Below are positions 14,411-16,420 of a DNA stretch of 37,164 nt, piece after piece. The DNA lies in contig NZ_FOPY01000021.1 of assembly GCF_900113605.1 (NCBI RefSeq), forward strand, positions 1 to 37,164. Reading direction: 5' to 3'. A program made the position numbers and the translations under genes. The DNA is from Modicisalibacter xianhensis (lineage in GTDB: Bacteria; Pseudomonadota; Gammaproteobacteria; Pseudomonadales; Halomonadaceae). Position 1 is the first letter of the stretch; each line of letters opens with the position of its first letter. The notes beneath the pieces were generated by a model. It was not told the DNA's origin, did no database searches, and saw only the letters and a list, made by a program, of their open reading frames with translations.

Positions 14411-14512
14411 TCGCGGTGATGCATTGATCAATGCCATGTTCAGCGCTTATCGCTCATCTTTGTCGAGAGGGATATGTCTTCGTCGGCGTCATACGCTGGA
14501 TTGTTCGAACGC

Positions 14513-14540
14513 AAAAAAATGGGCCACATCAAGTGGCCCA
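14513..14540 (-). terminator. Intrinsic terminator of the small RNA
   Basis: On the minus strand GGGCCAC (14539-14533), loop TTGAT and GTGGCCC (14527-14521) are followed by A and seven T. It is a strong factor-independent terminator, and no minus-strand reading frame leads into it. Confidence 0.93.
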
Positions 14541-14793
14541 AGGTACGCAGGGAACTGGGGTAGCCTCAATCGAGGCGGAATGCTTGTCGAGTTTCCTTAC
14601 TCGTCCGCTCCATGGCTATGCAAGCCCTCGATCCTCCTTATCGAGCCTGCCTATCCTTGGCAGGGCTTGCCGGGAGATCCGTCTCCGGGTCGATCCGTGC
14701 TAGCCAAGCACTCCTTTGGCGAGATGCTGCTCAACAACGGGGAAGTGAGCCACTCTCGCCAGTGACATCCTATCTGTAGCCAAATAAGTGCCA
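14513..14793 (-). ncRNA. CsrB/RsmZ-type CsrA-sequestering small RNA (candidate)
   Basis: About 280 bases with a good promoter, an intrinsic terminator and no minus-strand ORF. The RNA holds eleven GGA motifs. Three successive hairpins carry AAGGA in the loop: stem CGAGT/ACTCG with loop AAGGAA (14588-14603), stem CTCGAT/ATCGAG with loop AAGGAGG (14627-14645), and stem CTGCC/GGCAG with loop AAGGATA (14647-14663). The last two are enclosed by an outer helix GCAAGCC/GGCTTGC (14620-14626 with 14664-14670). A fourth (14673-14686) has CGGA in the loop. Near the 5' end, AGATAGGATGT resembles the optimal CsrA site. Such RNAs titrate CsrA/RsmA and are switched on by GacA/UvrY. The family is inferred from structure, not from alignment. 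The 5' end is estimated from the -10 box. Confidence 0.78.
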
Positions 14794-14799
14794 ACTACC

Positions 14800-14828
14800 A
14801 TTATAAGCTTTATAAAACAATATGTTAT
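14800..14828 (-). promoter_or_regulatory. Sigma-70 promoter of the small RNA
   Basis: On the minus strand a perfect TATAAT (14805-14800) is preceded, 17 bases away, by ATAACA (14828-14823; four of six match TTGACA). Transcription would start near 14793. Confidence 0.7.
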
Positions 14829-14957
14829 AAATGGCATTGGCAATAGCGAGAGGAGGGAGTGCGACAGAATGCGCCAACGAGACAGGTAATTGTGTCGGCA
14901 TTTGCCAACGCCCAGCCTGCTATTTTATGAACCATGAATGAAAACAGGCGGTTGGGG

Positions 14958-14975
14958 TGTCGCCATATGCTTACA
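14958..14975 (-). promoter_or_regulatory. Possible GacA/UvrY upstream activating site (one good half)
   Basis: Minus strand TGTAAG (14975-14970), six bases, then GCGACA (14963-14958). The consensus is TGTAAG-N6-CTTACA, so the first half is perfect and the second matches at three of six. The distance to the inferred start, about 165-180 bases, is in the range I recall for csrB/rsmZ genes. A one-mismatch IHF-like site (14990-15002) lies just upstream. Confidence 0.4.
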
Positions 14976-15472: not shown

Positions 15473-15712
15473 TCAGCGCAGGGGGTCGAGTAACCCCTTC
15501 AGCCCGTTGTGATCGATTTCGTGCATTAGCGCTAACAAGTGGCCGAGTTCACCCTCGGGAAAGCCCTCGCGTGCAAACCAGTTGAGATAAGGGCCGGGCA
15601 AGTCGGCCAACAAGCGGCCCTGATACTTGCCGAATGGCATTCTCCACTGCATCAACTTATTGAGATCGCTGGAATTCAAGGGTAACTCCCGATATTTAAC
15701 GTAGGGAATCAT
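15473..15712 (-). CDS. DUF3820 family protein
   Basis: A 79-residue protein of the DUF3820 family, sometimes described as a putative quorum-sensing-regulated virulence factor in pseudomonads. The family core is plain: MPFGKYQGRLLADLPGPYLNW, FAREGFPEGELGHLL, and the C-terminal HNGLKGLLDPLR. The start gives an N-terminal extension of 24 residues before MPFGKY, common in the family. The ribosome binding site is weak. It probably belongs to one minus-strand unit with 15116-15367, with a gap of 105 bases. The biochemical role is not known. Confidence 0.88.
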   Translation of the reverse strand: MIPYVKYRELPLNSSDLNKLMQWRMPFGKYQGRLLADLPGPYLNWFAREGFPEGELGHLLALMHEIDHNGLKGLLDPLR

Positions 15713-16039: not shown

Positions 16040-16420
16040 ATGTCATCGACACTGCAGAAGTATGTTGAAAAAGAGCGCCTGTTGAAGCAGCTGAGCGAAG
16101 AGCTCAAGCAGCTTGAGGGCGACCAGAACTTTCAGCGGGAGCTGGAGTTCAAGAACAAGCTCGAAGCGCTGATGAACGAGTTCGACAAGAGCGCCGCTGA
16201 CGTTATCGAACTGCTGCAGCCCGGCAAGCCGGCGGAAGCCAAAGTGTCCCAGCCTTCCAGTGGCGGTGGGCGCCGCAAGCGTAGATTGAAAATCTACAAG
16301 AATCCGAACACGGGAGAAGTGGTGGAAACCCGTGGCGGCAACCAGAAGACACTCAAGGCTTGGAAAGAAGAGCACGGCGACGAAACCGTCGAGTCCTGGC
16401 TGGTTCGCATCGAAGAATAA
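16040..16420 (+). CDS. mvaT: MvaT-type H-NS family nucleoid protein
   Basis: Xenogeneic silencer that binds AT-rich DNA. The 126-residue protein has the family layout: an N-terminal coiled-coil for oligomers (residues 1-60, LQKYVEKERLLKQLSEELKQ and on), a flexible linker with SSGGGRRKRR near 74-83, and a C-terminal DNA-binding domain (LKIYKNPNTGEVVETRGGNQ, KTLKAWKEEHG, ESWL). The R-G-G-N loop is the minor-groove contact in MvaT relatives. AGGG precedes the ATG and a terminator follows. It is a single-gene unit. Confidence 0.93.
   Translation: MSSTLQKYVEKERLLKQLSEELKQLEGDQNFQRELEFKNKLEALMNEFDKSAADVIELLQPGKPAEAKVSQPSSGGGRRKRRLKIYKNPNTGEVVETRGGNQKTLKAWKEEHGDETVESWLVRIEE

Follow-up and report, generated by a model that had tools for sequence, protein, structure and literature searches.

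RNAs that titrate CsrA are of a known kind, and such Csr antagonists are usually tied to the BarA/UvrY or GacS/GacA systems: CsrB/CsrC and RsmX/Y/Z are under UvrY/GacA control, and the GacA/UvrY box reads TGTAAG-N6-CTTACA. The Qrr RNAs of Vibrio are sigma-54-driven paralogs with an invariant core. For E. coli glmY, PMC6075780 describes control by sigma-54, QseF (GlrR), and IHF, and PMC8745638 gives TGTCN10GACA as the QseF (GlrR) consensus and reports the order glmY-qseE-qseG-qseF in Proteus mirabilis, with two IHF and three QseF sites. According to PMC7073468, the RNA-binding domain of RapZ occurs only in Enterobacteriaceae, and so do GlmY and GlmZ. In the Gac-Csr pathway of Halomonas anticariensis, the sRNA is listed as "Unknown" in PMC7366521.

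Here, we analyzed a predicted RNA gene of Modicisalibacter xianhensis. The window is the whole stretch of 37,164 nt that was analyzed (GCF_900113605.1, contig NZ_FOPY01000021.1, forward-strand positions 1-37,164). G000 denotes the M. xianhensis genome of the window and G003 that of M. luteus, whereas L-numbers denote loci and C-numbers contigs. The gene belongs to an apparently undescribed sRNA family of salt-loving bacteria. No description of a halomonad sRNA family with this 3' module was found in the open-licence literature on halomonad sRNAs, Csr, and GlrR/GlmY, nor is one given in the available excerpts of PMC7366521, PMC12889724, PMC13101641, PMC13414033, PMC6075780, PMC8745638, and PMC7073468. 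What appears to be new is the predicted GlrR/sigma-54 wiring together with the shared module.

Features of the window RNA

An initial annotation had placed an RNA of the CsrB/RsmZ type on the minus strand of 14513-14793. In line with its description of this strand as ORF-free, no minus-strand ORF of at least 60 aa overlaps this stretch; on the plus strand it is overlapped by two ORFs, of 113 and 90 aa. The RNA and its parts were located as follows.

14513..14768, minus strand: predicted small RNA of 256 nt, its start taken from the -24/-12 element and its end from the T tail
14647..14663, minus strand: hairpin 1, CUGCC-AAGGAUA-GGCAG, with CsrA-type loop AAGGAUA (pair probability 0.93)
14627..14645, minus strand: hairpin 2, CUCGAU-AAGGAGG-AUCGAG, with CsrA-type loop AAGGAGG (pair probability 0.80-0.85)
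14588..14603, minus strand: hairpin 3, CGAGU-AAGGAA-ACUCG, with CsrA-type loop AAGGAA (pair probability 0.92-0.98)
14513..14540, minus strand: intrinsic terminator, 8 pairs followed by 7 T (stem-loop 14540-14520 plus T tail)
14508..14562, minus strand: match of the family model R1 to the 3' module, with the 17-mer TTCCCTGCGTACCTTGG at 14554-14538

The minus strand of 14513-14768 looks like a real small-RNA gene. Our count confirmed the reported eleven GGA motifs on the minus strand of 14513-14793. The accompanying estimate of four to five by chance agrees with mononucleotide shuffles of the 256-nt RNA (mean 4.9; the observed 10 are reached in 1.0%) and is too low by dinucleotide shuffles (6.5; 10 reached in 5.7%), and the raw GGA count is weak evidence. 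ANGGA occurs 7 times in the 256-nt RNA versus 1.4 in shuffles, with none of 1,000 shuffles reaching 7, and 3 hairpin loops contain it versus 0.055 in shuffles, with none of 200 reaching 3; neither number is due to chance. The fold energy of the stretch is likewise low (z = -5.0; 0/200 shuffles as low).

Folding bore out the three hairpins with AAGGA in loops of 6-7 nt (pair probabilities 0.80-0.98). The outer 7-bp helix CAAGCCC/GGGCUUG, said to enclose two of them, can be drawn but pairs with a probability of about 0.01 and can be imposed only at a cost of 6.5 kcal/mol, and we rejected it as the favored structure, in which all three AAGGA hairpins lie inside another outer helix. The terminator with seven T is present as described; its pattern alone proves little, since shuffles of the 1.2-kb region give an equal number of such sites (1 observed versus 1.0).

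The RNA is flanked by a dehydrogenase gene and a small ORF. Its upstream neighbors include a QSregVF_b family protein (15473-15712, minus strand) and an MvaT-type silencer (16040-16420, plus strand). The M. xianhensis genome has two csrA genes and a RapZ family gene.

Rfam searches with the window RNA returned no family at gathering score and, even at E up to 10, none of the CsrB/Rsm kind and none for GlmY/GlmZ; weak matches within that limit (SpF41, RyhB, suhB, and others), obtained with this RNA or the long RNA described below, lay far below gathering scores and were not adopted.

Predicted promoter and upstream boxes

The upstream region contains the following elements.

14778..14794, minus strand: sigma-54 promoter TTGGCACTTATTTGGCT, score 11/12, with GG at 14792-14791 and GC at 14780-14779
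14800..14805, minus strand: TATAAT box, at most a secondary sigma-70 start
14815..14827, minus strand: IHF-like site TAACATATTGTTT at -33 (pattern match)
14893..14910, minus strand: putative GlrR-type box 2, CGTTGGCAAATGCCGACA, at -116, 6/8 (the M. luteus copy also 6/8)
14958..14975, minus strand: putative GlrR (QseF)-type box 1, TGTAAGCATATGGCGACA, at -181 from the sigma-54 element, 7/8 to TGTC-N10-GACA

For IHF we applied a relaxed form of what we take to be the site pattern. Upstream of the window RNA, a GacA/UvrY box can be read in its left half only (TGTAAG, within box 1), the right half, GCGACA, being a misfit. The perfect TATAAT of the initial annotation is indeed found, at 14805-14800, but a promoter role for it is doubtful: sigma-70 promoter-like sites are near shuffle level (2 observed versus 0.9 +/- 1.2; the TATAAT site scores 10/12), and the box is absent from the syntenic M. 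luteus copy on contig C7. We therefore rejected it as the main promoter. In that M. luteus copy, both GlrR-type boxes are kept, as are GG and GC in the -24/-12 element (promoter score 10/12); the IHF pattern was not found in it. Just before the sigma-54 element, a perfect TATAAT occurs in 2 of the 81 family genes described below, the window RNA included, and a 5-of-6 match in 33 (a raw count without control). The window RNA may have a secondary sigma-70 start, since in E. coli a sigma-70 promoter overlaps that of glmY itself (PMC7073468).

A family of RNAs sharing a 3' module

The 3' module consists of the near-invariant UUCCCUGCGUA and a terminator. Among 14 genus genomes, the last 46 nt of the query match many places, 5 of them in the M. 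xianhensis genome. The exact 17-mer TTCCCTGCGTACCTTGG is present in 53 of 201 family genomes (0 for the reversed control), and a 20-letter module pattern found 59 stretches among 84,980 species genomes, titled Halomonas, Modicisalibacter, Litchfieldella, Salinicola, Chromohalobacter, Aidingimonas, Bisbaumannia, a Halomonadaceae MAG, and one "Gammaproteobacteria bacterium" that is apparently G133, a family genome. With a covariance model of the module, full-length matches of at least 40 bits were obtained in 17 of 24 Halomonadaceae genera (121 genomes) and in none of genera g3, g5, g11, g17, g18, g19, and g24, where the sRNA family may be absent or diverged.

A class-wide search with R1 gave matches at E <= 0.01 in 105 of 274 genomes, including G000 and G028, which are family genomes. 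Outside the family, none of the matches listed for the 274 genomes exceeded 30 bits, and these matches, mostly to the terminator alone, were not counted as modules; with 20 candidates scored per genome under strict filters, weak modules outside the family could escape this search. Viral contigs yielded 0 modules.

In the module alignment (A1; 30 of 70 copies, picked for diversity), the letters TT.CCTGCGTACCT are invariant and the following terminator stem varies. In further genera, the stretch after TTCCCTGCGTA is shortened, and the module is not always kept, as the M. luteus C7 copy differs there. It is the only sequence common to all members, ANGGA-free ones included. As the bodies otherwise have little in common, the conservation of the module points to a common partner. 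No conserved long complement was found in the 14 genus genomes (14-mers, at most 1 mismatch), the search returning mainly modules, which makes a protein partner or short seed more likely than a long complement. Complement sites other than modules were few, roughly as many as the reversed pattern gave as a control. M. xianhensis C25 and G003 C4 have one variant in common, located where an open reading frame ends (3' end), and this is the only such two-genome site. An exact site in G008 C11 lies opposite a GC-rich hairpin, is intergenic and like another module, and is absent from the listed copies.

Module copies are regularly preceded by a sigma-54 promoter. A -24/-12 element scoring at least 9/12 lies within 650 nt of 68 of the 70 distinct copies (at least 10 in 66), at distances of 87 to 499 nt; a score of 9 is attained by 16.5% of mononucleotide shuffles, the only control used here, and one of 10 by 2.5%. 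Only L027 and the L049 copy behind another ORF lack such an element. In a set of 38 rows, 29 score at least 10, and the other nine (L205, L206, L207, L208, L214, and L216-L219; R1 28-44 bits) have 9 or no element. Some module-like ends (L049:2545, L205-L208, and L214) lack a sigma-54 promoter; some of these directly follow an open frame, and such ends may belong to mRNAs that have the module at the 3' end.

For the upstream boxes, we used a set of 81 genes defined by a core with at most 1 mismatch, a sigma-54 score of at least 10, and a T run, genes identical over the 60 nt around the core being counted once; L002, L027, L028, L080, and the second L049 copy are among those left out. The high promoter rate in this set is due to selection, and the unselected figure is 68/70. 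Upstream of these genes lies a palindrome, TGTCGCC-N4-GGCGACA. TGTC-N10-GACA (at least 7/8) occurs upstream of 65 of the 81 versus a mean of 5.7 and a maximum of 11 in 20 dinucleotide-shuffled sets. A gap of 10 gives 1.3 sites per promoter, a gap of 8 gives 0.68, and other gaps give <0.4. IHF-like sites accompany 51 of the 81 genes versus 2. The window RNA, with its sigma-54 element, GlrR-type box, and 3' module, has everything by which the family is defined.

Long members at the argA-glrK locus

The commonest family member, of ~450 nt, lies between argA and the glrK-lipoprotein-glrR operon, which is the place and wiring of enterobacterial glmY. In M. xianhensis it is found on C37.

Promoter 92722, module to 92239, minus strand: long family member of C37, between argA and a histidine kinase gene

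Downstream follow the histidine kinase, a 176-aa protein with a lipoprotein-like start that matched no family, and a response regulator that passes the NCBIfam GlrR model (821 bits versus a cut-off of 763). Among the 61 genes with a promoter distance of at least 290, argA is upstream in 54 and glrK downstream on the same strand in 37. The 24 without glrK comprise 22 loci of at most 1301 nt, L026 (another class), and the query locus; the 7 without argA are L026, L200, and L215 (that other class), the query locus, and three short loci. In genus g9, tandem sigma-54 RNAs (L033 and L034) stand between argA and glrK, with distances of about 420 and 195. At E up to 10, the GlmY/GlmZ models gave no match to the long RNA.

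The long member carries three GGA hairpins in succession, two with covarying stems in 52 aligned long RNAs. Its first element has the GGA beside an inner stem, not in a terminal loop; the stem of the second loop occurs as GGGC/GCCC, GGGA/UCCC, AGGC/GCCU, and GGGU/ACCC; and the third hairpin is uninformative because it never varies. In this domain alignment, 97.7% of cells are paired versus 91.8% in shuffles, both sides change in 9 of 16 pairs versus 3.5 in shuffles, and the covariation score is reached by 0/500 shuffles; slid structures pair at most 47%. The alignment (A3) holds 52 of 56 distinct domain sequences, without L006, L017 (near-identical to L018), and the divergent L201 and L202, which have no GGA in hairpin 2. 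All 56 sequences together give 96.8% paired and 9/16 double changes (without shuffle control). Owing to a distance cut at 340, L203, L211, and L212 (1-2 ANGGA) stand outside the alignment.

Distribution of ANGGA in the family

At least three ANGGA are present in 58 of the 61 genes with a promoter distance of at least 290. Taken singly, many long RNAs do not exceed shuffles in ANGGA count, and several have no ANGGA loop in the minimum-energy fold. When 35 relatives chosen from the 81 were examined as single sequences, the ANGGA count was reached by <5% of shuffles in 10, and the minimum-energy fold showed one or more ANGGA hairpin loops in 19. Among members at the argA position, L204 (153 nt) has no ANGGA, and L211 and L212 have no ANGGA loop. 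The eight shortest members (promoter distance <140 nt), one of them in M. xianhensis (C19, L030), contain no ANGGA, so promoter plus module does not imply CsrA binding. Promoter and module are thus what defines the family, and titrating CsrA would be a trait of many of its RNAs but not of every one.

In M. xianhensis, ANGGA occurs 7 times in the window RNA, 3 times in the long RNA of C37, 4 times in the RNA on C32 (where the minimum-energy fold places none of them in a loop), and 8 times in the RNA on C27. The last one (L064, G000:C27, 4000-4262) is a CsrB-like RNA with 14 GGA and 8 ANGGA in 263 nt and its own terminator, immediately followed by a module copy. It sits on a 22-kb contig with a resolvase gene, and a sigma-54 element was not found for it; the upstream sequence TGTCGGTAATCTCTTACA fits a GlrR-type box and half a GacA box. 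A small Halomonas plasmid, pIGAnt2 (NZ_KP228014.1), carries at about 380-950 (L246) two successive GGA-rich CsrB-like stretches, each with a terminator and without the module, which partly overlap an annotated hypothetical protein.

Relatives of the window RNA body

A DNA search of the 14 genus genomes found one other place resembling the body of the window RNA, on C7 of M. luteus (76% over query positions 82-319), and no further whole-length relative among the matches listed at E up to 10. The body is thus present in 1 of 13 other genus genomes and partly decayed there. M. xianhensis and M. luteus have the same flanking genes. In this sole ortholog, the GGA is kept in 1 of 3 hairpins and the 3' module is altered, so that the stem conservation in related genomes expected by the initial annotation holds weakly. 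Another M. luteus relative (L082, G003:C32) has 4 ANGGA hairpin loops and lies on a plasmid-like 9.8-kb contig with a Rep3 initiator; it would be a sponge RNA on a mobile element. The covarying-domain model of the long RNAs scores the window RNA at only 19.5 bits; it is of another class than the long RNAs, with hairpins of its own.

The window RNA was also proposed to be the global switch that antagonizes CsrA. Given the other ANGGA RNAs in the genome (at least three, on C37, C32, and C27) and a body found in 1 of 13 other genus genomes, it is unlikely to be "the" switch.

Proposed function and alternative explanations

The window RNA resembles CsrB/CsrC and RsmX/Y/Z in its many GGA, ANGGA in hairpin loops, intrinsic terminator, and lack of a large ORF, and differs from them in having no Rfam match, a predicted sigma-54/GlrR-type control, and a module shared with ANGGA-free RNAs. 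The original assignment to the CsrB/RsmZ type therefore stands as regards the ANGGA loops, which are above chance, but not as regards its family match or its conserved promoter, which is of the sigma-54 type with GlrR-type boxes. The shared 3' module and the putative link to GlrR are additions to that first assignment. With GlmY/GlmZ the family has in common a sigma-54 promoter, TGTC-N10-GACA boxes, and IHF-like sites, and the long member, like glmY, is upstream of glrK-lipoprotein-glrR; no GlmY/GlmZ model matches, however, the long member is about 450 nt, and there are ANGGA hairpins. The window RNA, unlike its long C37 paralog, is not upstream of glrK-qseG-glrR. As with the Qrr RNAs, a halomonad genome has several paralogs that are driven by sigma-54 and share an invariant core, but core and activator are different, and the bodies are unlike each other, many with ANGGA hairpins.

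On balance, we lean with modest confidence toward the window RNA being a CsrA-titrating RNA, one of several whose genes are activated by GlrR and sigma-54. Transcription of 14768-14513 on the minus strand would be turned on by sigma-54 RNA polymerase together with the response regulator GlrR (QseF), with GlrR bound at the boxes at -181 and -116 and the DNA probably bent by IHF. The transcript, which would end in the 3' module common to the halomonad sRNA family, is predicted to expose ANGGA in at least three hairpin loops and thereby to hold CsrA off its mRNA targets, and a GlrK/GlrR signal would in this way pass through the window RNA to the Csr system. Titration of CsrA seems the best reading of the ANGGA enrichment and loops, the two csrA genes, and the covarying GGA loops in the paralogous RNA.

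It is unlikely that the window RNA instead acts mainly by base pairing through its 3' module, as one sRNA of a Qrr-like multi-copy family in which the GGA hairpins are secondary; the module alone is common to all members, and TT.CCTGCGTACCT is invariant, but no long complement is conserved in the genus (14-mers, 14 genomes) and the window RNA is strongly enriched in ANGGA. A GlmY/GlmZ-like role, with RapZ instead of CsrA as the protein decoyed, would account for a promoter, boxes, and regulator like those of glmY, for long members at the glmY place, and for the RapZ family gene. We consider it improbable in view of the missing GlmY/GlmZ match of either long or window RNA (E up to 10) and the hairpins: we know of no ANGGA hairpins in GlmY, to which they would be foreign. 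The reported restriction of the RapZ RNA-binding domain to Enterobacteriaceae (PMC7073468) also speaks against it.

That the gene is a GacA-activated sigma-70 RNA of the CsrB/RsmZ type, with fortuitous sigma-54 signals, appears more improbable still. The TATAAT box with its 10/12 promoter-like site and the TGTAAG half of box 1 fit this idea, but the GCGACA half does not, and the family and M. luteus retain the sigma-54 element and the TGTC-N10-GACA symmetry, not TATAAT. Least credible of all is a decaying or silent copy without present function: the one whole-body relative in the genus is itself changed, yet the window copy has its promoter, boxes, module, and terminator intact, along with all three AAGGA hairpins.

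Beyond the preferred reading of the window RNA as a CsrA antagonist, we propose, tentatively and as an idea that may well prove wrong, that in Halomonadaceae GlrK/GlrR-sigma-54 runs a set of unlike sRNAs with one near-invariant 3' module. The RapZ decoy at the glmY position would have been replaced by an RNA with CsrA-type hairpins, feeding envelope signaling into Csr; the module would serve as a common seed or protein handle uniting one regulon, and plasmid-like contigs would carry members of their own.

Implications

If true, an input from GlrR and sigma-54 would be a different entry into the Csr network. It would also suggest a role of GlrR outside Enterobacteriaceae, the family to which GlmY/GlmZ are said to be restricted in PMC7073468. 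The module itself offers a simple sequence handle for finding and testing this RNA family in halomonads.
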